A stretch of DNA of 64,000 bases from Microbacterium sp. SLBN-154 (GTDB lineage Bacteria; Actinomycetota; Actinomycetes; Actinomycetales; Microbacteriaceae), in contig NZ_VFNL01000001.1 of assembly GCF_006715565.1 (NCBI RefSeq), positions 1,302,001 to 1,366,000 of the forward strand. Reading direction: 5' to 3'. Shown in pieces: positions 15,009-61,675 of this stretch. A program made the position numbers and the translations under genes. Every line of letters begins with the position of its first letter. The stretch's first letter is position 1. Below the pieces are notes generated by a model, which was not told where the DNA came from, ran no database searches, and was given only the letters and a program-made list of their open reading frames with translations.

Positions 15009-15020
15009 GATTCCTCCGTG

Positions 15021-16390: not shown

Positions 16391-16459
16391 GTGCATCTCC
16401 TTTGCAGATTCACCGTTGATCCGTCTGTGCGGCCGCGACCTCGCGGCGTCTCGGTAGAC

Positions 16460-16487: not shown

Positions 16488-16494
16488 GACGAGC

Positions 16495-16508: not shown

Positions 16509-16657
16509 GGGCTTGACCAGTGGGCATTTCTCCGGCGAGAATCCCCTTGATCGGGTATTTTCACGAGTCATCCGGTTGAAGAGGAGGTTCGGATGTCCCA
16601 TTTCATGTCCACGTCAGACATGACTGATTCCCACGACGTCGACGCGGGCGGAAGTCG

Positions 16658-17671: not shown

Positions 17672-17680
17672 CGAGCGCCG

Positions 17681-18133
17681 TCACGTCCACTGATCGTTCG
17701 CGGCGGCGTCGTACCGGTCGGGCTCCGGTCCACGCTGGAAGCGCCGGCCCGTGATCGACGTCGGCGACAGACGGACCCAACGGTATTTGAGGGTCGGGAT
17801 CCAGGGCGTGAGCGGCAGAGCCTCGGCCGCGTCGATCTCGCTCTGCAGTTCGAGGCGGGCCGCTATCCCCTTGAACACCACGCTCGCGGCACCGTCGTCG
17901 TCGTACTCATCGACCTCGAATGCGATGCGGGGGTTCGCCGACAGCTCCGCGAGCTTCGACCCGGGCGCCGTGCGGAACAGCACGTGCGGCCCGTCGGTCA
18001 CGTAGTTGATCGGGAAGATGTCGGGCTCCCCCTGGATCGACACCGCCAGGCGACCCACCTGACCACGTGCGAGCAGGCTCCAGCACTCGTCCTCGCTGAG
18101 GCTCCACACGGGGGCTTCGGTGATGTCATCCAT
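17681..18133 (-). CDS. Pyridoxamine 5'-phosphate oxidase-like (FMN/F420-binding split barrel) protein
   Basis: A 150-residue single-domain flavin-binding split barrel. The pattern ECWSLLARGQVGRLAV, then FPINYVTDGPHVLFRTAPGSK, then RIAFEVDEYDDDGAASVVFKG matches the PNPOx-like family that is widespread in actinobacteria. AAGGAG lies before the ATG at 18133. The stop is 10 bp from the LacI stop (convergent). It is divergent from PEP synthase with 177 bp between. A role in pyridoxal synthesis is unlikely; such proteins bind FMN, F420 or heme. Confidence 0.85.
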   Translation of the reverse strand: MDDITEAPVWSLSEDECWSLLARGQVGRLAVSIQGEPDIFPINYVTDGPHVLFRTAPGSKLAELSANPRIAFEVDEYDDDGAASVVFKGIAARLELQSEIDAAEALPLTPWIPTLKYRWVRLSPTSITGRRFQRGPEPDRYDAAANDQWT

Positions 18134-18310
18134 CGGTGTGCTCCTTCTCGCCCTCGGTGTCGGGAGGAGTCTCCCGGCCCGCCCCGGCGGGCGCCGGGAC
18201 ATTGGTCCCGCGGCATCCGGGTCGTGGCCCGGCAGGACCTTCGACCCGGGCTGGTTCCGACCATCCCTCGACACTGACCCTGCATCGGACGAACGAGGTC
18301 GGGAGAGGGC

Positions 18311-20701
18311 ATGATGGCCGCAGAACAGGGGAGCAGCGTCATCCCGCTGTACGAGATCGGTATGGCGGACCTGCCCCAGGTGGGTGGGAAGAACGCCTCC
18401 CTCGGCGAGATGATCTCGCGGCTGGCCTCGAGCGGCGTGCGGGTGCCGGGCGGGTTCGCCACCACGGCGCGGGCCTATCGCGCCTTCCTCGCCGCAGACG
18501 GACTCGCAGATCGCATCGCGCGGATGCTGGCGGCGCTCGACGTGTCCGACGTCGCAGCGCTCGCCCGGGCGGGAGCCGAGATCCGCGCGATGATCAACGC
18601 CCAGCCCCTTCCGGCCGACCTCGAACGCGACATCCGCGACGCCTTCGCCGCCGTTGTCGACGAGACCGGGGGCACCGACATCACCTGGGCGGTCCGTTCG
18701 TCGGCGACCGCCGAAGACCTGCCGGATGCGTCCTTCGCCGGGCAGCAGGAGACCTTCCTGCACATCGCCGGCGTCGAGAACATCCTCGCGGCCATCACGA
18801 GGGTGTTCGCCTCGCTCTACAACGACCGCGCGATCGCCTATCGGGTGCACCAGGGGTTCGCGCACTCCGATGTGGCGCTGTCGGCCAGCGTGCAGCGCAT
18901 GGTGCGCTCCGACATCGGCGCGTCGGGTGTGATCTTCACCGTCGACACCGAGTCGGGGTTCCGCGACAGCGTCCTCGTCACCAGTGCCTATGGGCTGGGG
19001 GAGGCGGTGGTGCAGGGCGCGGTCAACCCGGATGAGTTCCTCGTGTACAAGCCCGGGCTCCGGGCCTGCCGGCCCGCGATCCTCCGTCGGCGCCTCGGCG
19101 AGAAGACCATCGCCCTTCGGTTCGCCACCGAGAGCACCGTCGGACACAGCACGTCGTTCGAGGACGTTCCCGACAGCGCGCGCTCGCGGTTCAGCATCAC
19201 CGACGACGATGTCGCCGAACTCGCACGATCCGCGCTGGTGATCGAGGAGCACTACGGCCGGCCGATGGACATCGAGTGGGCCCGCGACGGGCAGGAGGGT
19301 CGCCTGTACATCCTGCAGGCGCGTCCCGAGACGGTCGTGTCGCGGGAGGATGCCGTGACCCTCGACCGCTTCGTGCTGCGCGAGCACGGCGACCTTCTCA
19401 TCTCGGGTCGCGCGATCGGTCGCCGCATCGGCGTCGGGCGGGTGCGGGTGATGTCCTCGGCCGAGCACATGGAGCGGGTGCAGGACGGCGACGTGATCGT
19501 GGCCGACATGACCGATCCCGACTGGGAGCCGGTGATGAAGAAGGCCGCCGCGATCATCACCGACCGCGGCGGTCGCACCTGCCACGCAGCGATCGTTGCG
19601 CGCGAGCTCGGCATCCCCGCCGTCGTCGGCACGGTCACCGCCACCCGCGAGCTCACCGACGGGACGCTCGTCACGGTCAGCTGCAGCGACGGTGACGAGG
19701 GGCACGTGTTCGCCGGACGTGCGGACTTCTCGGAGGAGCACACGCGCATCGATCGGATGCCGCCGATCCCGGTCGAGCTGATGATGAACGTCGGCGCACC
19801 CGATCAGGCGTTCGCCTTCGCCGCGCTCCCCAACGCCGGGGTGGGGCTTGCCCGACTGGAGTTCATCATCAACGAACTCATCGGCATTCATCCGCAGGCG
19901 CTGCTCGACGTCGCGGCGCTGGATGAACCGCTGCGGGACGAGATCATGCTCCGCACGAGCCCCTACGGCGGACCGCGGGAGTTCTTCGTCCGCCGCCTGG
20001 CCGAGGGCGTCTCGACCATCGCGGCCGCGTTCGCACCCAAACCGGTGATCGTCCGCACGAGCGACTTCAAGACCAATGAGTACGCGCATCTGCTCGGAGG
20101 CGAGCGATACGAGCCGCAGGAGGAGAACCCGATGCTCGGGTGGCGGGGAGCGTCGCGCTACGTCACCGACCGGTTCGCCGACTGCTTCGCGATGGAATGC
20201 GACGCGCTGCGCCACGTCCGTGACGCCATGGGTCTGACGAACGTTAAGATCATGATCCCGTTCGTCCGCACGGTCGATGAGGCCGCGGCCGTGGAGCGGG
20301 TGCTCGCCGAGAATGGCCTGCGCCGGGGGGAGAACGGCCTCGAGGTCCTGATGATGTGCGAGATTCCGTCGAACGCCCTGCTCGCCGATCGCTTCCTCGA
20401 CCACTTCGACGGGTTCTCCATCGGGTCCAACGACATGACTCAGCTCGTCCTCGGCGTCGACCGGGATTCCGATCTCGTCGCGGAGGCTTTCGACGAGCGG
20501 AACCCCGCCGTGCTGAGCGTGCTGCAGATGGCGATCGAGGCCTGCAATCGAAGAGGGCGCTACGTCGGCATCTGCGGCCAGGGCCCGTCGGATCATCCTG
20601 ATCTCGCCGACTGGCTCGTCCGCCACGGCATCGGATCGATCTCTCTCAACCCCGACAGCATCATCGAGACATGGCTGTCGCTGGCGAAGCGTAAGACCTG
20701 A
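18311..20701 (+). CDS. ppsA: Phosphoenolpyruvate synthase
   Basis: A 796-residue protein with the full three-domain order: an N-terminal ATP-grasp domain ([15 protein letters not shown] at the start, [19 protein letters not shown] near 135), the swivelling phosphohistidine domain ([19 protein letters not shown], histidine near residue 425) and the C-terminal PEP/pyruvate TIM barrel ([28 protein letters not shown]). It converts pyruvate, ATP and water to PEP, AMP and phosphate for gluconeogenesis. Start ATG 18311 follows GGGAGAGG; ATG 18314 is equally possible. No regulatory PPDK/PEPS kinase gene is adjacent. A very long antisense frame across this gene is a shadow. Confidence 0.92.
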
Positions 20702-44104: not shown

Positions 44105-45139
44105 ATGGCGAGCCCGTTCACGATGCTGACCGTTCCCGGGCCCGAGGGCGACCGCGAGGTGCGCCTGTCGAACCCCGACCGCGTGCTGTGGCCGGCACTG
44201 GGGATCACCAAACGCGAGCTCGCCGAGTACCTCATGGCGGTGTCGGGCCCGTTCCTCGCCGCGAACGGCAACCGGCCGGTGTCGCTGGAACGGTTCCCCG
44301 AATCGGTGGAGGGGGAGCGGTTCTATTCCAAGAACCCGCCGAAGGGGACGCCCGACTACGTCGACGCGGTGACGGTGCGGTACAACAGCGGGCGGCGGCA
44401 TCCGCAGATCGTGCTGACCGAGCCTGCAGCCGTCGTGTGGGCGGCCCAGATGAACACGATCGTGTTCCACCCGTGGGCGTCGCTGACGAGCAACACCGAC
44501 AACCCCGTCGAGCTGCGGATCGACCTCGACCCGCAGCCGGGCACCGACTTCGCCGACGCCGCCGCGGTCGCGCCCGCCCTGCTTGACGTGCTCGCCGAAG
44601 CGGGGCTGACGGCGTTCGTGAAGACGAGCGGCAATCGCGGCATCCATGTGTTCTGCCCCATCGAGCCCGAGTGGGAGTTCCTCGACGTGCGGCACGCCGT
44701 CATCGCCGCCGGCCGCGAGCTGGAGCGCCGGATGCCCGATCGCGTGACGACGAACTGGTGGAAGGAAGAGCGCGGGGAGCGCATCTTCATCGACTTCAAC
44801 CAGGCCAACCGCGACCGCACGATGGCAGGGGCCTACAGCCCTCGGGCGCTCGCAGGTGCGACCGTGTCGACGCCGATCACGTGGGATGAGCTCGCGGATG
44901 TCGACCCTGCGGCCTTCACGGTGCGCTCGGTGCCGGAGCGGCTCGCCTCGGTCGGAGACCCGTGGCAGGGGATGCTCGACGCACCGGGGCGCATCGACGT
45001 GCTGCTGGAGTGGTGGCAGCGCGACCTCGACGACGGGCTCGGCGAGCTTCCGTTCCCGCCCGACTTCCCGAAGATGCCTGGCGAGCCGCCGCGCGTGCAG
45101 CCGAGCCGCAAGAATCCGGAGAACTGGCCGAAGGAGTAG
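44105..45139 (+). CDS. LigD-type polymerase/primase domain protein (PolD)
   Basis: A 344-residue stand-alone archaeo-eukaryotic-primase-like polymerase domain as in the NHEJ protein LigD. Motifs: LSNPDRVLWPALGITK near residue 21 (family start), ELRIDLDPQPGTDF near 138 with the DxD metal site, KTSGNRGIHVFCP near 175, and GERIFIDFNQANRDRT near 228 with the third acidic residue. No ligase or nuclease domain is attached. In mycobacteria the related PolD1 gene is next to ligC; here a LigC-type gene follows 8.7 kb later, on the far side of the lipoprotein/regulator cassette. Such enzymes add ribonucleotides and fill gaps in end joining or base excision repair. Confidence 0.9.
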   Translation: MASPFTMLTVPGPEGDREVRLSNPDRVLWPALGITKRELAEYLMAVSGPFLAANGNRPVSLERFPESVEGERFYSKNPPKGTPDYVDAVTVRYNSGRRHPQIVLTEPAAVVWAAQMNTIVFHPWASLTSNTDNPVELRIDLDPQPGTDFADAAAVAPALLDVLAEAGLTAFVKTSGNRGIHVFCPIEPEWEFLDVRHAVIAAGRELERRMPDRVTTNWWKEERGERIFIDFNQANRDRTMAGAYSPRALAGATVSTPITWDELADVDPAAFTVRSVPERLASVGDPWQGMLDAPGRIDVLLEWWQRDLDDGLGELPFPPDFPKMPGEPPRVQPSRKNPENWPKE

Positions 45140-45225
45140 CGCGGTTCGTTCCCCGCGCCGTCGGTTCGGGATGCCGCGGCGCGAGCTCGCGCGCGGCGCG
45201 CCTCGTGTCGAGCCTCTCCCGTTCG

Positions 45226-45340
45226 CCTGTCGCAAACGGCCGTGCGTGGCCGCGCTTCGTGACAGGTGAGTGGGCGAGCGCGCGGGGGTGCCCCGTTCGG
45301 CTGTCGCAAGCGGCCCGTGTGGCCGCGCTTCGTGACAGGC
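45226..45340. repeat. Two 41-bp foldback elements (CCTGTCGC family)
   Basis: At 45226-45266 and 45300-45340, each starts with CTGTCGCAA and ends TTCGTGACAGG or a close form, with GGCCGCGCTTCGTGACAGG common to both. The arms CCTGTC/GACAGG are perfect in copy 1. The same pattern in the opposite orientation recurs at 53680-53810, on the other side of the cassette. Confidence 0.8.
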
Positions 45341-45430
45341 GAGCGGGCAGCGCGCGGGGGTCCCGGCACGGCCGGTGCGGCATGCCGTAGCGCGAGGTCG
45401 CGCGGTGTGCTCCTCAAACGGGGGTGGTTA

Positions 45431-45574
45431 CCCCGCTTCCCCCGTCACGTTCGGCCCTGGCAGCTCGCGTTTCGGGGCAGATGTCGTCGGGGGAGCATGG
45501 GGCACCCCGCTTCCCCCGTCACGTTCGGTCCTGGCAGTTCGCGTTTCGGGGCAGATGTGGCCGGGGGAGCGGAT
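45431..45574. repeat. Two 70-bp direct repeats
   Basis: A unit starting CCCCGCTTCCCCCGTCACGT and ending CGGGGGAGC occurs at 45431 and 45505, a step of 74 bp, with only a few differences. Its ends GCTTCCCCCG and CGGGGGAGC are complementary apart from one bulged T. Together with the 41-bp elements and the two short direct repeats of the lipoprotein promoter it fills the 555-bp gap after the polymerase gene. Confidence 0.85.
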
Positions 45575-45586: not shown

Positions 45587-45604
45587 ATTGCACGAAGATT
45601 GCGC
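45587..45604 (+). promoter_or_regulatory. Heptamer direct repeat, 11-bp period (SARP-type operator), site 1
   Basis: ATTGCAC (45587-45593), spacer GAAG, ATTGCGC (45598-45604). The second heptamer starts 44 bp before the -10 box TAGCGT at 45642. Identical architecture is seen at 46325-46342. Confidence 0.6.
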
Positions 45605-45641
45605 GGCGCACGGCGCGCCGAAAACCGCGCAACGGTCCTCA

Positions 45642-45647
45642 TAGCGT
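45642..45647 (+). promoter_or_regulatory. -10 box of the first lipoprotein gene
   Basis: TAGCGT followed by CGGCG, matching TAGCTT-CGGCG at 46380; the matched context marks it as the core promoter of the lipoprotein gene, with a leader of about 40 nt. Confidence 0.5.
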
Positions 45648-45694
45648 CGGCGCGTGCCGGATGACCCGGCACCACGAACCGAGGGGGACCACCC

Positions 45695-46300
45695 ATGCAC
45701 ACCGCACCCGCACCCGCATCCGCCCACGCGCCGGAAGCGTCGACTCCGCTCCAGCGACGATTCGCGGCCGCCGCCGCAGCGGCGCTGCTCGCTGCCGCCA
45801 CTCTCACCGGCTGCACCTTCACACTCGGGGCCTCCGGCGCCGAACCCGGCGCCACCGAGCCGGCCGCGGCCACGACGACCGACCCCGACCCCGACCCCGA
45901 CGCCACCGCCCCCGACGTCACCGACCCCGGCGGCACCCGCCCGGCGGGCGGCGACGCGGGATTCGTCGAGACCGAGGCCGGTGCGATCGCGCTCTTCCAA
46001 GACCGCTGGTACGACAACTTCTGCTCCAGCGTCAACATCGCGATGGGCGACGAGAACTGCGTCGGCATCGCGATCGAGGCCCTCGAGATGATCGACGGGG
46101 CGGCCGACCGCGCCATCGCTGCCGGTGCCGACGATGAGCTCGTCACCGCGGCGACCGCGGCAGAAGACGCCGCCGCCGCGTTCCGCGCCGCCGAGTGCGA
46201 CATCTCCACCTCGGACACCTGCGTCGGCCCGACCGACGACTTCACCGACGCGGTGCGCGCGTACGGCGACGAACTCACCGAAAGGCTGGCCGCGCAATGA
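45695..46300 (+). CDS. Lipoprotein of unknown function
   Basis: A 201-residue exported protein. The N-terminal 25 residues are polar, then the hydrophobic stretch RRFAAAAAAALLAAA ends in the lipobox ATLTGC. Next comes a flexible Thr/Pro/Asp-rich linker (TTTDPDPDPDATAPDV), and then a helical domain with four cysteines (NFCSSVN, DENCVGIA, AECDISTSDTC) that can form two disulfides. GAGGGGG lies 8 bases before the ATG. I do not recognise the family. It is followed by a lipoprotein protease sharing the same promoter elements, so the two probably act together at the cell surface. Confidence 0.75.
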   Translation: MHTAPAPASAHAPEASTPLQRRFAAAAAAALLAAATLTGCTFTLGASGAEPGATEPAAATTTDPDPDPDATAPDVTDPGGTRPAGGDAGFVETEAGAIALFQDRWYDNFCSSVNIAMGDENCVGIAIEALEMIDGAADRAIAAGADDELVTAATAAEDAAAAFRAAECDISTSDTCVGPTDDFTDAVRAYGDELTERLAAQ

Positions 46301-46324
46301 ATGCCGCACGCCCTGCAACGTCGG

Positions 46325-46342
46325 ATTGCACGAACATTGCAC
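46325..46342 (+). promoter_or_regulatory. Heptamer direct repeat, 11-bp period (SARP-type operator), site 2
   Basis: ATTGCAC (46325-46331), spacer GAAC, ATTGCAC (46336-46342). The second copy starts 44 bp before TAGCTT (46380), the same distance as in site 1. Confidence 0.65.
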
Positions 46343-46379
46343 GGACGAAACGGCTCGCTCCGGCATCCGATTCCGTCCG

Positions 46380-46385
46380 TAGCTT
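46380..46385 (+). promoter_or_regulatory. -10 box of the protease gene
   Basis: TAGCTT is followed by seven bases and then the ATG at 46393, so the mRNA is probably leaderless. Confidence 0.55.
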
Positions 46386-46392
46386 CGGCGAC

Positions 46393-47979
46393 ATGAACAC
46401 CACCGCACCCACTCGTCGCACTCGATCACGGCTTCTGCCGGCCGGTGCGGCCATGCTCACGACGTCTGCTCTCGCCCTCACCGGCTGCATGAGCTTCGTC
46501 ACTCCCGAAGTCGCGGAGCCTGCGGGCGTCGGCTTCGACGACATCCAGACCGCCACCATCCAGATCGAGGCCGTCGGCACCTTCGTCTCGCCCGAGATGG
46601 GCGGCTATGAAGCCGCCGGTCGCGGCTCGGGCTTCCTCATCAGCGAAAACGGCCTCGCCGTGACCAACAACCACGTGGTCGTGGGGGCCGGCACACTCAA
46701 GGTCTGGCGCGGCGGCGACACGAGCGAGACGCTCAACGCCAAGGTGCTCGGCTCGTCGGAGTGTCTCGACCTCGCGGTCATCCAGCTGCAGGAAGACGAG
46801 TACCCGCACTTCACCTGGCGTGAGGGCGAGATTACGACCGCGACCGACGTCTACGCCGCCGGCTTCCCGCTCGGCGACCCCGAGTTCACCATGACCCGCG
46901 GCATCGTGTCGAAGGCCGACACCGCCGTCGACACCCCCTGGGCCTCGCTCGACCACGTGATCGAGCACGACGCCCGCATCCGCGGCGGCAACTCCGGCGG
47001 GCCGCTCATCGACAGCGAAGGGCGCCTGGTCGGCGTGAACTACGCCGGCAACGATCAGTACGACCAGAACCTCGCGATCCACCGCGACGAGGTGCAGGAG
47101 GTCATCGAGCAGCTGAGCAAGGGCGAGAGCGTGCTGAGCCTCGGCATCAACGGCACCGCCCTCATGACCGAGGAGGGGGAGGGGCTCGGCATCTGGGTCA
47201 ACTCCGTCGCCTCGGGGTCGGCCGCCGACAGCGCCGGGGTCGCCCCCGGCGACCTCCTCACCAAGATGGAGGGCGTCTCGGTCGGTGTCGACGGCACGAT
47301 GGCCGACTACTGCGACGTGCTGCGCACGCACGGTCACGACGCCACCCTGTCGGTGGAGCTGTACCGTCCCGCCGAGGGCGTGTACTACACCGGCCAGTTC
47401 AACGGCGAGCCCGTCGAGGCGGTCTCGGTGGCCACGCAGGCCGGCGCGAGCTCGGGCGGCGGGGGCACCGGTGGTTCGGGCGGATCGGGAGCCGTCTCGG
47501 CCGAGGAGTACGTCTCGATCGTGGATGACACGGGGAGCGTCACGGTCGATGTGCCGGCCGCGTGGGGCGACCTCGACACGTCGGTCTACACCGATCCGCG
47601 CGGCGGACAGTGGGCGCGCATCGATGCCAGCACCGATGTCGCGGCGTTCGCGTCGGGCTGGTCGGTGCCGGGTGTCTCGGTCGTCGCCGCTCCCGCGGAC
47701 ACAGCGACCATCCAGCCCGAGGAGTGGCTGGGCATGACCGCCGACTACCTGGAGCAGTCGGGGTGCTCGCAGGGCGCCATCGACGAGTACACCGACGACC
47801 TCCACACCGGGGTCTTCCAGTACTGGACCGGATGCGGCGAATCCGCGGCCGATTATCTGATGCTCGCCGCCTACTCCAACGACGGGCAGTACGTCATCGT
47901 GCTCGCGGTCACCGCTCTGAGCGAGAGCGATCTCTACGCGATCGACCACGCCCTGGGCAGCTTCGCCGCCGCCTTCTGA
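46393..47979 (+). CDS. Trypsin-like serine protease lipoprotein with PDZ domain
   Basis: A 528-residue exported lipoprotein (lipobox LALTGC near residue 32). The protease domain covers about 60-230: catalytic His in TNNHVVV near 96, Asp in CLDLAVIQL near 126, Ser in RGGNSGGPLI near 203. A PDZ domain follows (LGIWVNSVASGSAADSAGVAPGD near 275). After a Gly/Ser linker comes a C-terminal domain of about 150 residues (SIVDDTGSVTVDVPAAWGDL) with two cysteines, of no recognised family, that resembles tail domains of exported actinobacterial proteins. HtrA-like design suggests surface proteolysis or quality control. Promoter repeats are shared with the lipoprotein upstream; a strong terminator follows. 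Confidence 0.88.
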   Translation: MNTTAPTRRTRSRLLPAGAAMLTTSALALTGCMSFVTPEVAEPAGVGFDDIQTATIQIEAVGTFVSPEMGGYEAAGRGSGFLISENGLAVTNNHVVVGAGTLKVWRGGDTSETLNAKVLGSSECLDLAVIQLQEDEYPHFTWREGEITTATDVYAAGFPLGDPEFTMTRGIVSKADTAVDTPWASLDHVIEHDARIRGGNSGGPLIDSEGRLVGVNYAGNDQYDQNLAIHRDEVQEVIEQLSKGESVLSLGINGTALMTEEGEGLGIWVNSVASGSAADSAGVAPGDLLTKMEGVSVGVDGTMADYCDVLRTHGHDATLSVELYRPAEGVYYTGQFNGEPVEAVSVATQAGASSGGGGTGGSGGSGAVSAEEYVSIVDDTGSVTVDVPAAWGDLDTSVYTDPRGGQWARIDASTDVAAFASGWSVPGVSVVAAPADTATIQPEEWLGMTADYLEQSGCSQGAIDEYTDDLHTGVFQYWTGCGESAADYLMLAAYSNDGQYVIVLAVTALSESDLYAIDHALGSFAAAF

Positions 47980-47983
47980 AACC

Positions 47984-48015
47984 GTGGGGCCCCGACCACC
48001 GGGTCGGGGCCCCAC
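47984..48015 (+). terminator. Strong hairpin terminator after the protease gene
   Basis: GTGGGGCCCCGACC (47984-47997) and GGTCGGGGCCCCAC (48002-48015) are perfect 14-bp complements with a 4-base loop, five bases after the stop. There is no long U tract, as usual for this group. Confidence 0.75.
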
Positions 48016-48026
48016 CTCACGACAGG

Positions 48027-48033
48027 ATTGCAC
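48027..48033 (+). promoter_or_regulatory. Single ATTGCAC heptamer before the regulator genes
   Basis: One copy of the promoter heptamer lies 12 bp after the terminator and 92 bp before the GTG of the first regulator. A second copy at 11-bp spacing is not evident, so this may be a half-site or chance. Confidence 0.3.
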
Positions 48034-48118
48034 CACAATGGCATCGGAATCATCACTGACGGCCCCCGCTCCGGTCACCGGTGCGGGGACGACGCGCTTC
48101 GCCGAGGGGGGACTGAGC

Positions 48119-50914
48119 GTGACGGTGGACGTGCGCCTGCTGGGCCTGGTCGAGGTGCGCGTCGACGACGACGTCGTCGCGCTGCGGGGCGACATCCCCA
48201 AAGCCCTCGTCGCGCGGCTGGCCCTCAGCGCGGGTGAGATCGTTCCGGCGGAGGAGCTGATCGCGGACGTCTGGCCGCAGCCTCCCGCGAACGTCCTCTC
48301 GACCCTGCGGGCCCACCTCTCGCGACTGCGGACCGCCGGCCTCGGTGCGCACCTCGTCGGGGCGCGCGGGGGCTACTCCCTCGATGTGCCCGCCGACCGG
48401 GTCGACCTTCTGCGGGTGCGCGCCGAGCTCGCCGCAGCCACCCGTCTCCCGGCGTCCGAGGAGCGCCTGGCCGCCCTCGGTGAGATCGCCGCGCGCGCGG
48501 CGCGCGACCCTCTCCCGGGGCTCGACGCCATCCCGTTCGTCGCCGCCGTGCGTGCCCGTCATCTCGCCGATCGGCGCGTGCTCGAAGAAGACCTCGGCGA
48601 GCAGGCCCTCGACCTCGGCGACACCGCCCTCGCGACCTCGGTGCTCGCCGGGACGGCACAGCGACACCCGTTCGACGAGCGGCCGGTCCGCCTGCTGGCC
48701 ACCGCACTCGCGCGCTCCGCGCGCATCCCCGACGCCCTCACCGCCATCGACGCGTTCACCACACGCTTGCGCGACGAGCGGGGCATGGATCCGTCGGCCC
48801 GGCTGCAGTCGCTTCGCGCATCGATCGTGCGGGTGGATCCGGAGGTCGTCACGCACCGCGCCGGTGCGGCCGTGCGGCGGGTGGGCGTCGGCATCCCGCT
48901 CACCCGCTTCGTCGGGCGCGCCGACGATCTCGCACGCCTCCGCGAGCGCCGTCGCGACCGCCGCCTCATCACGATCGTCGGCCCTGCCGGGGTCGGGAAG
49001 ACCCGCACCGCCGTCGAACTCGCCCGTGAGGCCACGACCGCCCTCGACGACGAGCAGTACATGGTCGATCTCGCCGACTTCCGTCAGCCCGACGAGGTGG
49101 TCGCGGCGATCGCGGCGGTCGTGCGGGCGCGAGAGCTGACGATGGATGCCATCGTCCGACGTCTCCGCTCCGGCCGCATCCTGCTGCTCCTCGACAACGC
49201 CGACCACGTGCTCGGCGCGCTCGCCGTCGCGGTCGACCGGCTGCTGCAGGGCACCGAAGGCGTGCGCATCGTGGTGACCAGCCGCGAGCCGCTGCGTCTG
49301 TCGGGCGAGGAGGTCGTGGTGCTCCGCCCTCTCGTCGGCGACGCCCACGCCGACGCCTGGCGGCTCTTCGCCGAACGCGCCGCCGACGCGCGCGGCGGTT
49401 ACGGTTTCGACGACGGCGAGCTCGACGACGCGCGCGCCCTGTGCGCGGAACTCGAGGGCATCCCCCTCGCGCTCGAACTCGCTGCCGCGCGGCTCGATGT
49501 GCTCGACGCCGCGCAGGTACGCGAGGGGATCGGCGCGCACGCCTCGCCCCGAGGGCGACACGACAGCGTCCGCACCGCGATCGACTGGACGTTCGGGCAG
49601 CTGAGCGAGCCGCAGCGCGAACTGCTGCAGGAGACCTCGAGATTCGCCGGTGCCTTCACCGTCGGGGCCGTCTCCGGAGCATCCGGCCGGCCCTGGGCCG
49701 ACACCGTCACCCTCCTCGATGAGCTCGTCGGCAAGTCTCTCCTCGCCGTCGAGCGCGGCAGCACCGGTCGCCGTCGATTCCGCATGCTGGAGTCGACCCG
49801 CGAGTACCTCACCGAGCGTGAGGACCCGGCGCGGGCGGCGATGTGGCGGCTGCGGTACCGGTGGTGGTTCGCCGACCTCACGACCACGCTCGGCCCGACG
49901 CTGCGCACGTTCGAGGCCCGCGACAGCATGGCCGTGCTCGACGACTTCCGCGCCGACCTCACCGAGGCCTTCGAGACGGCGGTGCTGGCCGGCGATCGCG
50001 ACGCGGCCGTGCGGCTGGCGGCAGGACAGGCGCAGTACTGGTTCCTCCGCGGCCTGATGGTCGAGGGCCGCAGCCGTCTGGAGCGGGCCCTCGAGCTGCC
50101 GGGCGATGCCACCACCCTCGACGGAATCGCGTGGCTGGAGCTGGCGAACCTCGCCTACCAGACCGGCGACGCCGCGGCCGGCTTCGGCGCCGTCGCGCGG
50201 GCGCGGGCCGAGGGCGAACGGCTCGCCGATCCGTCGGTGACCGCGGTGGCGCTCGCACGCGAGGCATACGGCCGGGCGATCTTCGGGCAGGCCGACGTGG
50301 GGGAGACCCTCCTCGCGCAGGCGCAGCACCTCACCGGCGAAGCTCAGGCCTGGGCGCGGGCCGAGGTGCACATGTCCGAGGGTCAGATCAGGCGGGCGCA
50401 GGGGAGGACGGATGACGCGCTGCACGCGCTCCGCTCCTCGTACCGGATCGCGGCGTCGATCGGCTACACGTGGATGATCACGACCTCGAAGTACGTCACG
50501 GCGAAGACCCTCGTCGACGCGCGCCGACCGAAGGAGGCCATCGACGTCGCGGTGGGGGCGGTGGAGGAGGCACGCGCGAATGAGGACGCCGCCGGCGCCC
50601 TGGCGGTGGTGTTCGTCATCGCGGGGGCGTGCGCCTTCGTCGAGCGGCACGAGATCGGGGCGCGGCTGCTCGGCGCCGTCGAGGAGATCGGGCGGCAGTA
50701 CGACTACAGCACCGCCGCCGTCGAGGGAGAGGATGCCGCGCGTCTGCGCGCATCGCTCAGCGTCGGGATGACTCCGGCCGAGTTCGCGCATCAGTACGAG
50801 CAGGGCCGGCGATGCGGTTGGCCCGACGTGCGCGAGATGCTCGCACGCCTGCCGCGTCGGGAGTTCTCGATGGCTGCGGACCCGTCACCCGCCGACGCGG
50901 ACGCGTCGCCGTGA
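48119..50914 (+). CDS. AfsR-like regulator (BTAD/SARP HTH, STAND ATPase, TPR), first
   Basis: A 931-residue multidomain regulator. The N-terminal OmpR-like DNA-binding domain reads VDVRLLGLVEVRVDDDVVAL, then LIADVWPQPPANVLSTLRAHLSRLR. The BTAD helical domain follows to about residue 230. A STAND-type NB-ARC ATPase has Walker A GPAGVGKTRT near 301, Walker B ILLLLDNADHVL near 355 and a GLPL-like GIPLALELAAARLDVL near 455. A TPR-like helical sensor covers 600-900. GTG 48119 after GAGGGGG fits the domain start; ATG 48038 would add 27 disordered residues. Such proteins are activators of secondary-metabolism or secretion genes. Likely targets are the two heptamer promoters upstream. Confidence 0.87.
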   Translation: MTVDVRLLGLVEVRVDDDVVALRGDIPKALVARLALSAGEIVPAEELIADVWPQPPANVLSTLRAHLSRLRTAGLGAHLVGARGGYSLDVPADRVDLLRVRAELAAATRLPASEERLAALGEIAARAARDPLPGLDAIPFVAAVRARHLADRRVLEEDLGEQALDLGDTALATSVLAGTAQRHPFDERPVRLLATALARSARIPDALTAIDAFTTRLRDERGMDPSARLQSLRASIVRVDPEVVTHRAGAAVRRVGVGIPLTRFVGRADDLARLRERRRDRRLITIVGPAGVGKTRTAVELAREATTALDDEQYMVDLADFRQPDEVVAAIAAVVRARELTMDAIVRRLRSGRILLLLDNADHVLGALAVAVDRLLQGTEGVRIVVTSREPLRLSGEEVVVLRPLVGDAHADAWRLFAERAADARGGYGFDDGELDDARALCAELEGIPLALELAAARLDVLDAAQVREGIGAHASPRGRHDSVRTAIDWTFGQLSEPQRELLQETSRFAGAFTVGAVSGASGRPWADTVTLLDELVGKSLLAVERGSTGRRRFRMLESTREYLTEREDPARAAMWRLRYRWWFADLTTTLGPTLRTFEARDSMAVLDDFRADLTEAFETAVLAGDRDAAVRLAAGQAQYWFLRGLMVEGRSRLERALELPGDATTLDGIAWLELANLAYQTGDAAAGFGAVARARAEGERLADPSVTAVALAREAYGRAIFGQADVGETLLAQAQHLTGEAQAWARAEVHMSEGQIRRAQGRTDDALHALRSSYRIAASIGYTWMITTSKYVTAKTLVDARRPKEAIDVAVGAVEEARANEDAAGALAVVFVIAGACAFVERHEIGARLLGAVEEIGRQYDYSTAAVEGEDAARLRASLSVGMTPAEFAHQYEQGRRCGWPDVREMLARLPRREFSMAADPSPADADASP

Positions 50915-53670
50915 CCGCCGTGCGGATCCACCTGTTCGGAGGGCTTCGGGTGACCGGGGAGGGGGCGCCGCCGCCGGTGCGCGGCGCGATCCCCGAGGCC
51001 ATCCTCTGTCGCCTCGCCCTCGACCCCGAGCGGTTGTTCACGACCGACGAGCTCGTCGAGGCGCTCTGGCCCGCGGCATCCGACAGCGTCGTCTCGAGCC
51101 TGCGCGCCCATCTGTCCCGCCTGCGGACGCGAGGATGGGGCGAGCTGCTGCCGGGCGGGCGCGGGGGATACCGCCTGGCGGTATCCCCCGAGGCGGTCGA
51201 CGTGATCCGGTATCGGCGGTTGCTCGAGGCCGACGGCACCCGGACGGACGACCCCTCGGCGCGCGCGGCGGTCCTCGCCGAGGCCGAGGCGTTGTGGACC
51301 GGGACGCCGCTCGCGCGGGTGACGGAGTTCCCGTTCGCGCCGCCGGTGATCGCCGAGCTCGGGATGCTGCGGCGCGCCGCTGCTGCCGAGCGCGCCGATC
51401 TGGAGACGGCCGCTTCGCGGCCGGCCGCGGCCCTCGCCGCCCTCGCGCCCTGGGCGGACGACCTCGAGGACGACGAGGTGGGGGTGCGGCTCGCCGGGGC
51501 CCTCGCCGAGGCGGGGCGCACCGCCGACGCGCTCGCCGAAGTGGACCGCCGCGTCGCGCATCGGCGCCGTGCCGGAGGGACAGTGCCGGAGGCATGGGCG
51601 CGACTGCGCGATCGCATCGCCCGTGGGGAGGACGGGCGCGCGGGCGTCGCCGGTGCGGGCGGTGGCGCTTCGGGCGGATCCGCGCGGCCGCGCGATCTGA
51701 TCGGGCGCGCGGTCGAACTCGACCGCATCGCCGACGCGCGGGCGCAGTCGCGGCTCGTGACCCTGACCGGGCCGGCCGGAGTCGGCAAGACCCGCCTCGC
51801 CGCCGAGGTCGCCCGCCGCGGCGCGGGCACCGACGACGACGCGCAGTGGTTCGTCGATCTCACCGTCATCCGCTCTCCCGACCGCCTGATCGGGGCGGTC
51901 GCCGAGACCCTCGGCTGTGCGAGTGAGATCGACGGGATCGCGGCGGCGCTCGGCGGTCGGCGGACCCTCGTCGTGTTCGACAACGCCGAGCATGTCCTCG
52001 GTGCGACGGCCGCGCTCGCTGCCGCGCTCCTCGAACGCTGCGCGGGGCTCGGCGTGCTCGTGACGAGCCGCGAAGCGATGCGGATGGCGGGGGAGCGTGT
52101 CGTGACCGTCGAGCCGCTCCTGGGCGGAGCGTTGGACGACGCGGTCGAACTCTTCCTCCAGCGCGCGGGTGAGAGCAGCGGGATGACGGGATGGACCGCC
52201 GAGGACCGCGATGCCGTGCGACGCCTGTGCGTCGCGCTCGACGGGCTTCCGCTGGCGATCGAGCTCGCCGCCGCGCGACTCGACGTGCTGAGCCTCGACG
52301 AAGTCGCCGGGTCGTTGGAGGCCCTCGGGCCGCAGGGAAGCGGCGCGGGCCGGCACGATTCGCTCGACGCCGCGATCGACTGGAGCGTCGGCATGATCTC
52401 CGACGACGAACGACGCACGCTCGGTCAGCTGGCGCGCTTCTCGGGGCCGTTCGGCCTCGATGCCGTGGCCGGCATATGCCGGGTCGAAGGGGCCGATCCC
52501 CGCGAGTCCACCATCGCACTCGTCCGTCGCTCGCTCGTCGTCCCCGCCGGCTCGGGCGGAGGGGAGCGCCGGTTCCGGCTGCTCGACACGGTCAGACGCT
52601 ACGCCCGGTCGCACCTGCAGACCGAGACTGACATCGAGTGGGACGCGCGGCACGGGCGCTGGATGGCCGACTACGCCGGCCGGACGGCGCCGCTCCTGCG
52701 CTCCGCGTCGGCGCCGAAGGCGCGAGCCTCGCTGCGTGGCTACGCGGCTGATCTGCAGGATGCCACGGCCCGTGCCATCCGCTCGGGGGACCGCGCCCTG
52801 GCGGTCGAGCTCGTCGGGTCGCTGGCGTGGTTCTGGTACGAGCGCGGGCAGGCGGACGAGGCACTGAACCTCATCGATCAGGCGCTCGCCGCGCCCGGAC
52901 CACGCCTCCCCGGACCCGAGGCGCGCGCGCTGTATGCCGCGACCTTCATGCAGGCGGTGGGCGGAGACCCCCTGGGGACCGTGCACGCGCTCCGACGCTT
53001 CGCCGAGGCCGCCGACGCCGCCGCCGACCCGCCGCACGCGATGATCGCGCACACCCTGCTCGGCTCGCTCGCCGCCGTGGAGGGCAACATCGAGACGCGG
53101 GAGGCCGAGCTCGCGATCGCCGAGCGATGGCGCGCCGAGGTCGGAGAAAGCGACCGATGGGCGATCGCTGATCACCTCTACATCCGGGGTGATGCGCTGC
53201 GGATCGCCGGCCACCCGGCGCAGGCGCTCGACAGCCTCGAGGAGGGCTACCGCCTGGCCACCGAGATCGGTCACACGTGGACGCTCGCAGCGTCGTGCTA
53301 CATCACCGGCAAGGTGCTGACCGAGGTCGGACGGCCGCGTGATGCGGTGGGGATCCTCCGCACCGGCGCCGCCCACTCCCTCGCCCGTGAAGACCGGATC
53401 AGCGCGCTCGCCGCAGTCAACGCGATCGCGGTCGCGCTGGGGGAGCTCGGGCAGTTCGACGATGCCGGCGAACTCTTCGGCCTGGTCGACGCGCTCGGAC
53501 CGCGCTTCGGGTTCCACCCCGTGGCGTCGGACGGATCGTACGCCGAGCCGTTCCGCGCGCGGACCGCCGCTGCGCTCGGCAGCGCGTGGGATGCGGTGCG
53601 CGCCCGCGGCGCCGCGCGCGACGTCGCCTGGGCGCTCGAACGCGCAGCGGCGGTCGCCGCTCGACCCTGA
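50911..53670 (+). CDS. AfsR-like regulator (BTAD/SARP HTH, STAND ATPase, TPR), second
   Basis: A 919-residue paralogue of the preceding protein, coupled by a GTGA overlap at 50911. The HTH begins VRIHLFGGLRVTGEGAPPP; the ATPase has Walker A GPAGVGKTRL near residue 291, Walker B TLVVFDNAEHVLG near 353 and GLPLAIELAAARLDVL near 445; the last 320 residues are TPR-like. The winged-helix recognition region is clear (FTTDELVEALWPAASDSVVSSLRAHLSRL). Two AfsR-like proteins in tandem suggest heteromer formation or a relay. No other secondary-metabolite genes are in the window. Confidence 0.87.
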   Translation: MTAVRIHLFGGLRVTGEGAPPPVRGAIPEAILCRLALDPERLFTTDELVEALWPAASDSVVSSLRAHLSRLRTRGWGELLPGGRGGYRLAVSPEAVDVIRYRRLLEADGTRTDDPSARAAVLAEAEALWTGTPLARVTEFPFAPPVIAELGMLRRAAAAERADLETAASRPAAALAALAPWADDLEDDEVGVRLAGALAEAGRTADALAEVDRRVAHRRRAGGTVPEAWARLRDRIARGEDGRAGVAGAGGGASGGSARPRDLIGRAVELDRIADARAQSRLVTLTGPAGVGKTRLAAEVARRGAGTDDDAQWFVDLTVIRSPDRLIGAVAETLGCASEIDGIAAALGGRRTLVVFDNAEHVLGATAALAAALLERCAGLGVLVTSREAMRMAGERVVTVEPLLGGALDDAVELFLQRAGESSGMTGWTAEDRDAVRRLCVALDGLPLAIELAAARLDVLSLDEVAGSLEALGPQGSGAGRHDSLDAAIDWSVGMISDDERRTLGQLARFSGPFGLDAVAGICRVEGADPRESTIALVRRSLVVPAGSGGGERRFRLLDTVRRYARSHLQTETDIEWDARHGRWMADYAGRTAPLLRSASAPKARASLRGYAADLQDATARAIRSGDRALAVELVGSLAWFWYERGQADEALNLIDQALAAPGPRLPGPEARALYAATFMQAVGGDPLGTVHALRRFAEAADAAADPPHAMIAHTLLGSLAAVEGNIETREAELAIAERWRAEVGESDRWAIADHLYIRGDALRIAGHPAQALDSLEEGYRLATEIGHTWTLAASCYITGKVLTEVGRPRDAVGILRTGAAHSLAREDRISALAAVNAIAVALGELGQFDDAGELFGLVDALGPRFGFHPVASDGSYAEPFRARTAAALGSAWDAVRARGAARDVAWALERAAAVAARP

Positions 53671-53679
53671 CCGGCCTCA

Positions 53680-53810
53680 CCTGTCACGAAGTGTCGCTGC
53701 GGGGCGCGTTTTGCGACCAGCGTGCCCGCGGCGCGCCCGATGGTCGGGCGCTGCGGACGTTCACCCGTCATGACGTGCTGTCGCGCGGCGCACGTTGCGA
53801 CCAGCGTGCC
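53680..53810. repeat. Two foldback elements, opposite orientation to those at 45226
   Basis: Copies at 53680-53726 and 53764-53810 begin CCTGTCACGAAG or CCCGTCATGACG and end TTGCGACCAGCGTGCC. The beginning is the reverse complement of the end of the elements at 45226-45340 (CTTCGTGACAGG), so the cassette between is flanked by inverted copies of one family. The gap between the regulator and the ligase gene contains nothing else but a -10 box. Confidence 0.75.
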
Positions 53811-53848
53811 TGGGGCACGGCGGGATGGCGCGACACCGGCGCGCACGC

Positions 53849-53860: not shown

Positions 53861-54922
53861 ATGGACCTTCCCGTCATGCCCCCGGTCGCGCCGATGCTCG
53901 CCAAGTCGGTCTCGGCGATCCCCGACCTCGGGCATGTCGAGCCCAAATGGGACGGGTTCCGTACGATCGTGTTCCGCGATGGCGATGAGGTCGAACTCGG
54001 AAGCCGCAACGAACGGCCGATGACGCGGTACTTCCCCGAGCTCGTCGATGCCCTTCGCGCCCAGCTTCCCGAACGGTGCGTCATCGACGGCGAGATCGTC
54101 GTCGCCACCGACGGCGGCCTGGATTTCGAGGCCCTGCAGCAGCGCATCCACCCCGCGGCGAGCCGGGTGAACCTGCTCGCCGCCCAGACACCCGTGTCGT
54201 TCATCGCCTTCGACCTGCTCGCGCTCGGTGACGACGACCTCACCGGCCGGGCGTTCTCCGAGCGTCGTGCGCTTCTGGTCGAGGCGCTCTCGGGCGTCGA
54301 GCCGCCGATCTACGTCACGCCCGCGACCGGCGACCCCGCCATCGCGCAGGAGTGGTTCGAGACCTTCGAGGGCGCGGGCTTGGACGGGGTGATCGCCAAA
54401 CCCCTCGACGGCACATATCAGCCCAACAAGCGCACGATGTTCAAGATCAAGCACGAGCGCACCGCCGACTGCGTGGTCGCGGGATTCCGCTGGCACAAGA
54501 CGGGGCCGATCGTCGGCTCGCTCCTCCTCGGCCTCTACGGCGACGACGGCACCCTGCACCACGTCGGAGTGACGGCATCCTTCCCGATGGCTCGGCGCAA
54601 GACCCTGCTCGACGATCTCGCTCCTTACCGCGACGTCGATCTCTCCGCCCACCCCTGGGGCGGCTGGGCCGAGCACGCCGCCGACGGCACCCAGCTCGCG
54701 GGCGCGGGCAGCCGGTGGAACGCCGGCAAAGACCTCTCCTTCGTGCCGCTGCGCCCCGAGCTGGTCGTCGAGGTCGCGTACGACCACATGGAGGGCGAGC
54801 GTTTCCGCCACATCCCGTCGTTCCGGCGCTGGCGCCCCGACCGCGACCCGCGCTCGTGCACCTTCGCGCAGCTGGAGGTGCCGGCGAGCTTCACCCTCTC
54901 CGACATCCTGCCGGGGCTTTGA
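53861..54922 (+). CDS. ligC: ATP-dependent DNA ligase, LigC type
   Basis: A 353-residue ligase with nucleotidyltransferase and OB-fold domains. The adenylated lysine is in VEPKWDGFRT near residue 27; motif III is in IDGEIVVAT, motif IIIa in FIAFDLLALGDDDL, motif IV in AGLDGVIAKPLDG and motif V in FKIKHERTADCVV. The OB-fold runs from about residue 225 to the end. In mycobacteria LigC acts as a back-up ligase for end joining and excision repair and is adjacent to the polymerase PolD1. Here the polymerase is at 44105, separated by the cassette. No Ku gene is in the window. Confidence 0.9.
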   Translation: MDLPVMPPVAPMLAKSVSAIPDLGHVEPKWDGFRTIVFRDGDEVELGSRNERPMTRYFPELVDALRAQLPERCVIDGEIVVATDGGLDFEALQQRIHPAASRVNLLAAQTPVSFIAFDLLALGDDDLTGRAFSERRALLVEALSGVEPPIYVTPATGDPAIAQEWFETFEGAGLDGVIAKPLDGTYQPNKRTMFKIKHERTADCVVAGFRWHKTGPIVGSLLLGLYGDDGTLHHVGVTASFPMARRKTLLDDLAPYRDVDLSAHPWGGWAEHAADGTQLAGAGSRWNAGKDLSFVPLRPELVVEVAYDHMEGERFRHIPSFRRWRPDRDPRSCTFAQLEVPASFTLSDILPGL

Positions 54923-59837: not shown

Positions 59838-61076
59838 GTGACCGACGCATCCCGTCCGACCGTCGCCGCCGCGCCGCAGCCGGCCGCGCGCGCCTTGGCG
59901 CGCGGGGTGACGGCGACCTGGTGGTACACCGCGGGGTCGGTGATGATCTTCCAGGCTGTGACGCTGTTCTTCTGGCTCCTGTCGGCGCTGGCCGACGGCG
60001 ATGCTCTGCAGGTCGCGATCTACCTTGCCGCGGCGGCGGTGTCGCTCGCCTCGAGCGTGCCGCTCCTAGCCCGGTACGGCCGCCGCCGGAGGATCGACGA
60101 CGCCGACGAGGAGGAGCGGTTCTCGGCCACGGTCTTCTGGTCGTTGCTTGCTTCGGCGGTCGCGGCTGTGGCGATCGGAGTGATCGCCGGATCGGTGCTG
60201 TCGGCTGCGGCGCTCATGGCTCTCGCGGTGATGCTGCTGCGCTGGCGCGGGGGTGTGCGCATCCGCTTGATCGCCGGGGTCGTCGTCGTGCTGATGGCCG
60301 TCTGGGTCCTCGAGAGCGCGCTCACCGAAGCGAGCCTCGGCGGCGAGGTCGTCTTCGTCTACAACCTGTTCTCGGTGCTGCTGCCGCCCACGGCCGTGGT
60401 GTGCCTGTGGTGGTGGGACATCGTCCTCGCCCTCGACGAGGCCCGCGCCGCGGAGGGGCGGCTCGCGGCCGCTCAGGAGCGGCTGCGGCTCGCGGGCGAT
60501 CTGCACGACCTGCAGGGACACCACCTGCAGGTGATCGCCCTTCAGCTCGAGCTGGCCGAGCGGATGCTGCCGCGCGACCCCGACGCGGCCGCCGAGCAGG
60601 TTAGGCTCGCGCGGGCGTCGGTCGATGAGGCCCGATCCGGCACCCGCGCACTCGCCGCGCGCTTCCGCGGCGTTCCGCTGCCCGACGAGCTCGCCAACGC
60701 GGCCGATCTGCTGCGGGCGGCGGGCCTCAGCGTCGAGCTCGACATCGACTCGCGTGCCGACGCCGCGCCCGCCGACATCCTGGGCCCGGTGGTGCGCGAG
60801 TCGACGACGAACATCCTCAAGCACGGCGGTGGCGCGTGGGCGCGGTTCCGTCTCGCCCTGGACGAGCGAGCCGACGGCCGGGTGTGGCGACTCGGCGTCA
60901 GCAACGACCTGTCCGCCACCGCCGCGCCCCCGCCCGCGGCGACCGCGGGATCGGGGCTTCCGGGCATCGCCGAGCGCGTCGGCTCGGTCGGGGGCGCGGC
61001 GCAGTGGGATGCCGCGCCCGAACGATTCACCCTCGAGGTCACCGTGCCTGCAGCATCCGTCGGAGGTCTGTCATGA
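59838..61076 (+). CDS. Two-component sensor histidine kinase (DesK-like, HisKA_3)
   Basis: A 412-residue sensor. Five or six membrane helices occupy residues 20-205 (for example MIFQAVTLFFWLLSALADG and LIAGVVVVLMAVWVLES). The dimerisation/phosphoacceptor helix has ERLRLAGDLHDLQGHHLQ, with histidine near residue 222, as in NarL-type kinases. The ATPase has the N box VVRESTTNILKHGGG and a final GSGLPGIAERVGSVGG. Membrane-embedded sensors of this shape in DesK detect lipid thickness. Start GTG 59838 is six bases after a -10 box. The stop overlaps the response regulator gene. Confidence 0.9.
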   Translation: MTDASRPTVAAAPQPAARALARGVTATWWYTAGSVMIFQAVTLFFWLLSALADGDALQVAIYLAAAAVSLASSVPLLARYGRRRRIDDADEEERFSATVFWSLLASAVAAVAIGVIAGSVLSAAALMALAVMLLRWRGGVRIRLIAGVVVVLMAVWVLESALTEASLGGEVVFVYNLFSVLLPPTAVVCLWWWDIVLALDEARAAEGRLAAAQERLRLAGDLHDLQGHHLQVIALQLELAERMLPRDPDAAAEQVRLARASVDEARSGTRALAARFRGVPLPDELANAADLLRAAGLSVELDIDSRADAAPADILGPVVRESTTNILKHGGGAWARFRLALDERADGRVWRLGVSNDLSATAAPPPAATAGSGLPGIAERVGSVGGAAQWDAAPERFTLEVTVPAASVGGLS

Positions 61077-61675
61077 TCCGCATCCTCATCGCCGATGACG
61101 AGGACATGATCCGCTCGGCGCTCGCGGCGCTCCTGCGGCTCGAAGACGATTTCGAGGTCGTCGCCGAGTGCCGCGACGGCGAGGAGGCCGTGGCCGAAGC
61201 GGTGCGGCTTCGCCCCACCGTGTGCCTGCTCGACCTCGAGATGCCGAGGCTCGACGGCGTCGACGCCGCCGCGCGCATCCGCCGGCAGGCGGGGTCGAAG
61301 TGCGTGGTGGTGACGCGGCACGCGCGACCGGGAGTGCTGCGCCGAGCGCTCAGCGCCGGGGTCGACGGTTTCCTGCCCAAGTCGCGCCCGGCGCAGGACG
61401 TCGCTGCGGTGATCCGCGACGTCGTCGCCGGGCGGCGCTACGTCGACCCCGAGATCGCGGCCGACGCGCTCACCGACGAACGGAGCCCGCTGACCGACCG
61501 CGAGCTCGATGTGCTGCGTGCAGGATCTCGCGGTGAGACGATCGCCGAGATCGCGGCGACCCTGCACCTCTCGCCCGGCACCGTGCGCAACCACGTCTCG
61601 GCCGTGCTGGGGAAGCTCGGCCTCGCGACGCGTCAGCAGGCGGCGATCCTCGCGCGCGAGCGCGGGTGGATCTGA
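61073..61675 (+). CDS. Response regulator, NarL/DesR type
   Basis: A 200-residue regulator with receiver domain (IRILIADDEDMIRSAL, acidic pair at 9-10; phosphorylated Asp in CLLDLEMPRLDG near 54; conserved Thr/Lys positions in VVVTRHARPG and GFLPKSRP) and a C-terminal LuxR HTH (TIAEIAATLHLSPGTVRNHVSAV). It shares ATGA with the kinase gene and is thus co-translated. DesR-like proteins induce desaturase genes. The desaturase in this window at 7621 is not adjacent, so that link is only a hypothesis. Confidence 0.92.
   Translation: MIRILIADDEDMIRSALAALLRLEDDFEVVAECRDGEEAVAEAVRLRPTVCLLDLEMPRLDGVDAAARIRRQAGSKCVVVTRHARPGVLRRALSAGVDGFLPKSRPAQDVAAVIRDVVAGRRYVDPEIAADALTDERSPLTDRELDVLRAGSRGETIAEIAATLHLSPGTVRNHVSAVLGKLGLATRQQAAILARERGWI

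Follow-up and report, generated by a model that had tools for sequence, protein, structure and literature searches.

SARP-type regulators (Streptomyces antibiotic regulatory proteins) serve to find and to switch on antibiotic clusters. The described protein closest to those discussed here is AfsR from Streptomyces coelicolor, which consists of winged-helix, BTAD, NOD/STAND and TPR parts. In the portion of the AfsR structure report drawn on here, two SARP domains lie side by side and each reads one 11 bp repeat; Arg92 contacts a T and Thr88 a G, Arg87, Ser91, Arg94 and Lys95 contact the backbone, and the protein switches with ATP binding. The same portion places SARP repeats 8 bp from the −10 element and centres the afs box at −29.5 (PMC10936776). 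PimR from S. natalensis, a SARP-LAL protein, is described in the excerpts of two papers as recognizing heptamers with 4 bp spacers in an operator that is clear of the −35 region, and class I activation is proposed there (PMC3367932, PMC5930380). Here we describe a locus at positions 45587–53670 of a 64,000-nucleotide window (the whole stretch of DNA that was analysed, from contig NZ_VFNL01000001.1 of Microbacterium sp. SLBN-154), in which the genes for a small lipoprotein, a lipoprotein protease and two AfsR-like regulators (regulators 1 and 2) follow one another on the forward strand. The genome, a single contig of 3.57 Mb, encodes two BTAD proteins, both at this locus. In our view the four genes probably form a small regulon run by the co-inherited regulator pair, acting as AfsR-like activators from about −58 and having envelope proteolysis as its output; this set of SARP-type regulators would seem to act elsewhere than on antibiotic clusters.

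Both lipoprotein genes are preceded by two ATTGCAC-type heptamers 11 bp apart, which are followed after exactly 37 bp by a −10 element of the form TAnnnT (Table 1). The interval singled out in the original prediction starts, at 45587, with the first base of the repeat upstream of the small lipoprotein gene. The pattern ATTGCRCNNNNATTGCRC has two exact matches in the genome, and these are the two sites in question. A further 23 sites match with up to two mismatches (25 including the exact ones), of which 18 were checked for a −10 element (20 including the exact ones), and TAnnnT was found at 37 bp in 0 of the 18; the degenerate copy before regulator 1 belongs to these inexact matches. Among the sites checked, this arrangement therefore occurs only before the protease and the small lipoprotein. 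As the shared cis element precedes both genes and its 37 bp spacing is confined to them among the checked sites, control of both by the two regulators is the most economical reading of the sequence. The −10 element of the protease gene lies 7 nucleotides before its ATG, and a leaderless mRNA is therefore predicted.

The same layout is seen in loci of five genera. The discovery set comprised eight genomes, chosen because a first look had shown the repeat near the protease. In this set the pattern RTTGCANNNNNATTGCR gave 29 sites, with TAnnnT at 37 bp in 22 and at 36 bp in one, and the layout is present at 12 of 12 sites in its five Microbacterium genomes. The further set consisted of 25 loci collected through homology to the regulators, one of which belongs to the window's clade (L173) and another of which is the second locus of a Naasia discovery genome (L182). 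These loci contain 41 sites with up to two mismatches, with the −10 element at 37 bp in 20, at 36 bp in three and at 38 bp in one; a single match was found at any other distance between 15 and 60 bp, about 0.02 being expected per distance. When all 29 regulator loci are combined, a count that includes four loci of near relatives, 43 of the 63 sites have the −10 element at 37 bp, three at 36 bp and three at 38 bp, and four matches fall at other distances between 0 and 60 bp. A looser pattern gave 111 sites, of which the 30 with loci were inspected.

A site at 37 bp is present in each of the 16 paired-regulator loci and in three of the 13 other regulator loci (L115, L187 and L194), the paired status being taken from locus readings, the regulator tree and a survey of gene gaps. 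Three unpaired loci (L117, L119 and L176) have a site at the layout distance with three mismatches. The 149 genomes of the genus contain 25 sites: the −10 element is at 37 bp in 10 of 10 in the pair-bearing genomes G000, G051, G086 and G047, and in 0 of 15 in 13 other genomes. Likewise, in 69 protease loci, most of them belonging to Chloroflexi and Acidimicrobiia, 0 of 205 sites are at 37 bp, with one at 36 bp and three at 38 bp where about one is expected per distance.

These controls bear on the alternative that some other DNA-binding protein, for example an OmpR-type response regulator, recognizes the repeats and that the BTAD genes are mere neighbours. Winged-helix regulators in general bind 11 bp tandem repeats, and a two-component pair is present in the window at 59838–61675, though its regulator has a LuxR-type rather than an OmpR-type helix. 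In G121 (L120:9802–17219) the BTAD genes are replaced: downstream of the protease come a lipoprotein, two large membrane proteins and a response regulator, which we take from the look of the sequences to be a two-component system with the large proteins as its histidine kinases. The layout at all paired loci and at none of the 15 sites in the 13 other genus genomes argues against such a reader, as does its position before the regulators themselves in relatives. At the single-regulator locus L115, moreover, a differing recognition helix (RVYVSRLR) accompanies a differing repeat (GTTGTCG) before the protease operon, an argument that is weakened by TTGCA-type sites at 37 bp elsewhere in the same locus. 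On balance, we consider reading by another protein to be improbable.

The 37 bp linker has no conserved −35 element: in 19 promoters picked by hand, conservation at the −35 place reaches at most 0.56 bits, compared with 2.74 bits for the fixed T positions. It could be proposed that binding of the regulators to the repeats brings about repression, alone or besides activation, and that the protease is induced once they are released, and the degenerate site before regulator 1 does overlie the likely start region of that gene. The sites, however, lie upstream of the −10 element and not over it, and a fixed 37 bp spacing without a conserved −35 element fits a promoter which needs an activator, such that we regard repression as very unlikely. 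An in-frame start codon is located 6–8 nucleotides past the −10 element in 29 of 47 promoter–gene pairs, and leaderless mRNA is predicted to be frequent behind the layout. The rows used for this count and for the comparison of heptamers given below were all picked for a −10 element at 36–38 bp.

Some variants of the repeat were noted in passing. Variants in G005, G133 and G111 are single cases that were first noticed by eye. In the protease promoters of two species (L033:53–113 and L174:5565–5625) a third TTGCAC copy ends 5 bp before the −10 element, near the described SARP position, and the G047 protease promoter (L116:8692–8731) has four heptamer-like units in 11 bp steps, the last of which is 37 bp from the −10 element. 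Other lineages appear by eye to have different 11 bp repeats upstream of the protease, with CCAAGAA in Herbiconiux and TGAAAG in G019 and G001 (L039:9647–9947, L118 and L121). One G133 site has a −10 element 6 bp away (L210), a spacing like that of canonical SARPs. It was dropped since this stretch contains sequences that we take to resemble DnaA boxes and no reading frame of more than 60 residues starts in the next 140 bases.

Domain searches agree with the original prediction that both regulators are AfsR-like proteins with BTAD and STAND parts. The BTAD scores are 41.9 bits for regulator 1 and 28.5 bits for regulator 2 (Pfam cut-off 22.1), and the Trans_reg_C matches (22.4 and 21.8 bits) are below their cut-off of 26.2, although the region aligns with the DNA-binding domain of AfsR. 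The order typical of large SARPs, with BTAD behind a winged helix of the OmpR type, is thus present in both. Both have the Walker A motif GPAGVGKT and a Walker B motif (LLLLDNA or LVVFDNA). The AfsR structure 8k60 is matched by residues 7–557 of regulator 1 (E = 2.3e-19) and more weakly by regulator 2 (E = 1.9e-11). Neither regulator matches a TPR family in Pfam at E ≤ 0.05, so that the TPR label rests on the likeness to AfsR; one relative matches TPR_12 at 9.4e-4, below the cut-off. There is no regulator match among the PADLOC defence models at E ≤ 0.001.

In a tree of 46 regulators the two proteins fall into separate clades, of 12 rows for regulator 2 (support 100/100) and 14 rows for regulator 1 (98/95); the tree does not show the two clades to be sisters, and the loci fetched do not include one partial regulator match (G726 C1:3334839). 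The genomes branch in the same order in both clades apart from the deepest split, at which the Naasia group and G572/G758 are exchanged as first branch. Given these nearly matching trees, regulators 1 and 2 are inherited together as a pair. Regulator 1 immediately precedes regulator 2 in 16 of 16 paired loci, with a candidate 4 bp overlap in eight of these, the remaining loci having gaps that reach about 200 bp. In the window the GTGA overlap reported in the original prediction is present at 50911–50914 (4 bp). Paired inheritance suggests that the two proteins work together; a mixed complex of regulators 1 and 2 is a guess, for which the co-inherited pair could be a test case with two STAND ATPases. 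In Naasia aerilata (L184:5620–9130) regulator 2 is split among two or more frames, either because the gene is broken or through sequencing error.

Comparison with AfsR and PimR indicates both common features and clear differences. The domain order is that of AfsR, and the tandem 11 bp repeats and several DNA-contact residues are shared: by alignment, regulator 1 keeps Arg87, Ser91, Arg92, Arg94, Trp74 and Pro79 in AfsR numbering as we matched it, and those of the recognition helix are retained in regulator 2 as well. Large SARPs are characterized by operators with direct repeats at a spacing of 11 or 22 bp, and the 11 bp repeats here would fit binding of the AfsR type. In contrast to AfsR, two regulators stand in tandem rather than one, and regulator 1 scores 91.9 bits against an AfsR equivalog cut-off of 1430. 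As the original prediction had remarked, secondary-metabolite genes do not accompany the pair; Pfam found no biosynthetic genes in 14 of the 17 neighbours called between 33128 and 61675, the scan leaving out the genes at 35787, 36262 and 59187. The 8 bp rule does not apply either, with TAnnnT at 0–25 bp in none of the 63 sites and at 37 bp in 43. Since neither the 8 bp rule nor the metabolite context, both of which were tested, holds here, the regulators are not filed as canonical SARPs. Heptamers with 4 bp spacers and an operator away from the −35 region are shared with PimR as it appears in the excerpts cited above; there the footprint lies 93 nucleotides from the transcription start of its one target gene, in a polyene cluster, whereas here a constant 37 bp separates the repeat from the −10 element in dozens of promoters.

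The class I site of CAP is at −61.5. If the −10 hexamer is placed at −12 to −7, the repeats would span −67 to −50, which we infer to be close to the class I position. The AfsR-like architecture is known, but the promoter geometry and the target set appear to be new to the literature searched: a search of open-licence papers did not find this system of regulator pair and promoter.

A mechanism can be proposed on this basis. The genes, the conserved layout, the co-occurrence, the co-inheritance of the pair and the conserved DNA-contact residues can all be read from sequence. The two regulators are most likely a pair of AfsR-like STAND ATPases which, like AfsR, would be switched by ATP binding. 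When active, with ATP bound, their winged-helix and BTAD parts would sit next to each other on two ATTGCAC heptamers at 11 bp spacing; centred near −58.5, they would recruit RNA polymerase to a promoter with a −10 element (TAGCKT) exactly 37 bp downstream and no conserved −35 element. The putative targets are the protease, with its predicted leaderless mRNA, and the small four-cysteine lipoprotein, joined in relatives by further small lipoproteins, DUF4870-type and other membrane proteins, hemerythrin and the regulators themselves, and what the regulon would achieve is proteolysis outside the cytoplasm, at the surface of the membrane. Binding, activation, the ATP switch, the class I-like contact and the hetero-oligomer are the steps which we infer. 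The cis signal is so strictly spaced that targets can be read from sequence, and the 37 bp geometry offers a direct test of how far a SARP-type activator reaches from the −10 element. A broader statement, that Microbacteriaceae have a promoter class in which an obligate hetero-oligomeric AfsR-like pair at about −58.5 activates −35-less, often leaderless promoters at a fixed distance of 37 bp and so runs an envelope protease and lipoprotein response, is more tentative, and we would give it somewhat less than an even chance. If it is true, SARP-type regulators would have a class I-like mode and a role outside secondary metabolism.

The layout in relatives precedes all the genes named above as putative targets, and also an alpha/beta hydrolase and secreted proteins; of two such secreted proteins one was scanned, and it has Ig-like matches. 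In Naasia, sites occur in trans before an alpha/beta hydrolase and a predicted lipoprotein. A protein of 108–136 residues without a Pfam match adjoins the pair in some paired loci (Table 1) and has its own copy of the layout in Naasia; a look-alike in L179 was recognized by eye only. For the 112-residue protein that adjoins the regulators in G047, a search of the window's genome, which had no positive control, gave no match. In L187 (G390; 13100–19210) two similar 550-residue secreted proteins, one of which was scanned and is Ig-like, and a small lipoprotein are found behind the layout, and the regulators are two tandem BTAD genes of another lineage.

The test that the original prediction set on gene neighbourhood in relatives came out in its favour, and we regard its interpretation as supported. 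A protease relative is present within the stretch (13–20 kb per locus; 18 kb for the window) in 19 of the 29 loci that have a close relative of the regulators; for loci whose regulators are more distant the count is 0 of 7. Conversely, a BTAD gene lies within 10 kb of the full-length protease in eight of 12 loci from the 149 genus genomes, about 0.004 being expected per locus for 3.5 Mb genomes and 92 BTAD matches; three of the eight loci are from near-identical species.

Several observations weigh against our interpretation. In the genome itself two loose matches have TAnnnT at 38 bp, and the one site before regulator 1 is degenerate and has no −10 element, so that its own control differs from that in relatives. 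With no complete site, and with a hairpin between the protease and regulator 1, this gene may be served by read-through or by a promoter that we do not see. Six of the 29 discovery sites, all from Naasia, have no −10 element at 36–38 bp, and in ten of the 29 regulator loci no TTGCA-type site, with two mismatches allowed, is found at 37 bp. Most sites are inside the module, and their association with the pair is in part positional. A general rule for any 7 bp repeat at 11 bp spacing followed by TAnnnT was also tried and rejected: the letter-blind scan of the 13 single-regulator or unpaired loci gave five matches at 37 bp, eight at 36 bp and similar numbers around, and the 37 bp rule is therefore claimed for TTGCA-type repeats only. 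Asymmetry between the upstream and downstream heptamers, considered as a sign of a heteromer, was not supported, the copies having no clear difference (p = 1 at position 1; at position 6, p = 0.05 with 53 rows and p = 0.19 with 47). The 53 rows leave out L038, L040, L198 and one L115 row, with none left for L177 after duplicate removal, and the 47 rows further omit the near-copies L113, L114 and L173. Among the AfsR residues, Thr88, Tyr89 and Lys95 are not conserved in regulator 1, nor is Pro79 in regulator 2.

Finally, the protease is absent from the 13–20 kb stretch in ten of the 29 regulator loci, and in several of these the layout stands before small lipoproteins, membrane proteins, hemerythrin or large secreted proteins. 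The control may then be as proposed but serve a wider surface process, for which proteolysis system would be the wrong name and in which the protease plays a special part such as releasing the small lipoprotein. This alternative concerns the output only and is compatible with the promoter part of our explanation. We consider it rather unlikely, though not negligible; in the genome of the window itself, the sites at 37 bp, of those checked, belong to the protease and the lipoprotein only.

Gene calls and domain searches confirm the unit of two lipoproteins, one of them a protease, and two regulators that had been predicted from the sequence, and an LTGC lipobox occurs in both the 201-residue protein and the 528-residue protease. 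A homologue search with the small lipoprotein returned nine proteins including the query, and the protein was aligned with two Naasia lipoproteins. Its model is helical, with a predicted local distance difference test (pLDDT) of 88–99 for the block of residues 91–201. Look-alikes adjoin the regulator pair in some relatives.

The protease resembles HtrA/DegP in having a trypsin-like domain with a His-Asp-Ser triad followed by a PDZ domain: Trypsin_2 is matched at 5e-28 and PDZ_6 at 3.2e-9 (36.8 bits; cut-off 27), and His94, Asp126 and Ser201 are invariant in 44 aligned sequences. It differs from HtrA/DegP in its lipobox and in about 155 residues beyond approximately residue 370 without a Pfam match, which are predicted as a mostly confident domain in the structure model, in line with the unrecognized C-terminal domain noted originally. 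The score against the Do family (TIGR02037) is 130.7 bits, below the cut-off of 416.2. Through its protease part it also matches two PADLOC reverse transcriptase (RT)-protease models (1.4e-20) and, weakly, HamA1 (8.7e-5). Relatives occur in Naasia, Herbiconiux, Rhodococcoides, Acidimicrobiia and many metagenome-assembled genomes of Chloroflexi, and most align over the C-terminal part too (102 stretches confirmed, 80 being kept as L033–L112). For this uncharacterized lipoprotein HtrA-like family, in Microbacteriaceae, Rhodococcoides, Acidimicrobiia and Chloroflexi, the promoter signature would predict partner genes.

Table 1. Features of the locus, in window positions, and of a protein adjoining the regulator pair in relatives, in positions of the loci named
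Feature	Position	Strand	Remarks
Direct repeat ATTGCAC-N4-ATTGCGC, ATTGCACgaagATTGCGC	45587..45604	+	Upstream of small lipoprotein
Predicted −10 element TAGCGT	45642..45647	+	37 bp past small-lipoprotein repeat
Small Cys-rich lipoprotein	45695..46300	+	201 aa; four conserved Cys (110, 122, 168, 176)
Direct repeat ATTGCAC-N4-ATTGCAC, ATTGCACgaacATTGCAC	46325..46342	+	Upstream of protease
Predicted −10 element TAGCTT	46380..46385	+	37 bp past protease repeat, 7 nt before ATG
Lipoprotein HtrA-like serine protease	46393..47979	+	528 aa; trypsin-like, PDZ, C-terminal domain without family
GC hairpin, terminator or attenuator candidate	47984..48015	+	−34.7 kcal/mol, z −4.74; no T tract
Degenerate repeat copy ATTGCACCACAATGGCAT	48027..48044	+	Before regulator 1; no −10 element at 37 bp
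Regulator 1	48119..50914	+	Winged helix, BTAD, STAND ATPase, C-terminal region
Regulator 2	50911..53670	+	Architecture as regulator 1; separate clade
108–136 aa protein	L036:968-1360; L116:10505-10843; also L178, L180, L181, L183, L184

The start of regulator 1 was set by homology, with an in-frame ATG at 48038 as the alternative. The module is flanked by genes for a LigD-type primase-polymerase (44105–45139) and an ATP-dependent DNA ligase (53861–54922). In 50 of the 53 genus genomes for which both were listed, the polymerase and ligase genes are convergent and at most 10 kb apart, with a median gap of 373 bp. The module lies between the two genes in the window and in G051, where the ligase is colinear, and the same order is found in G086 and G153; in G156 the module is between the polymerase gene and a ligase on the opposite strand, and in G047 it is elsewhere. 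Because the two genes are usually convergent neighbours and are here separated by the module, the sequences indicate that it was gained in, or moved to, the polymerase–ligase gap in the window's clade. Each module flank contains direct repeats. By eye, short repeated units of the CTGTCGCAA..TTCGTGACAGG type flank the module on both sides, at 45218–45348, 45430–45570 and 53677–53819.

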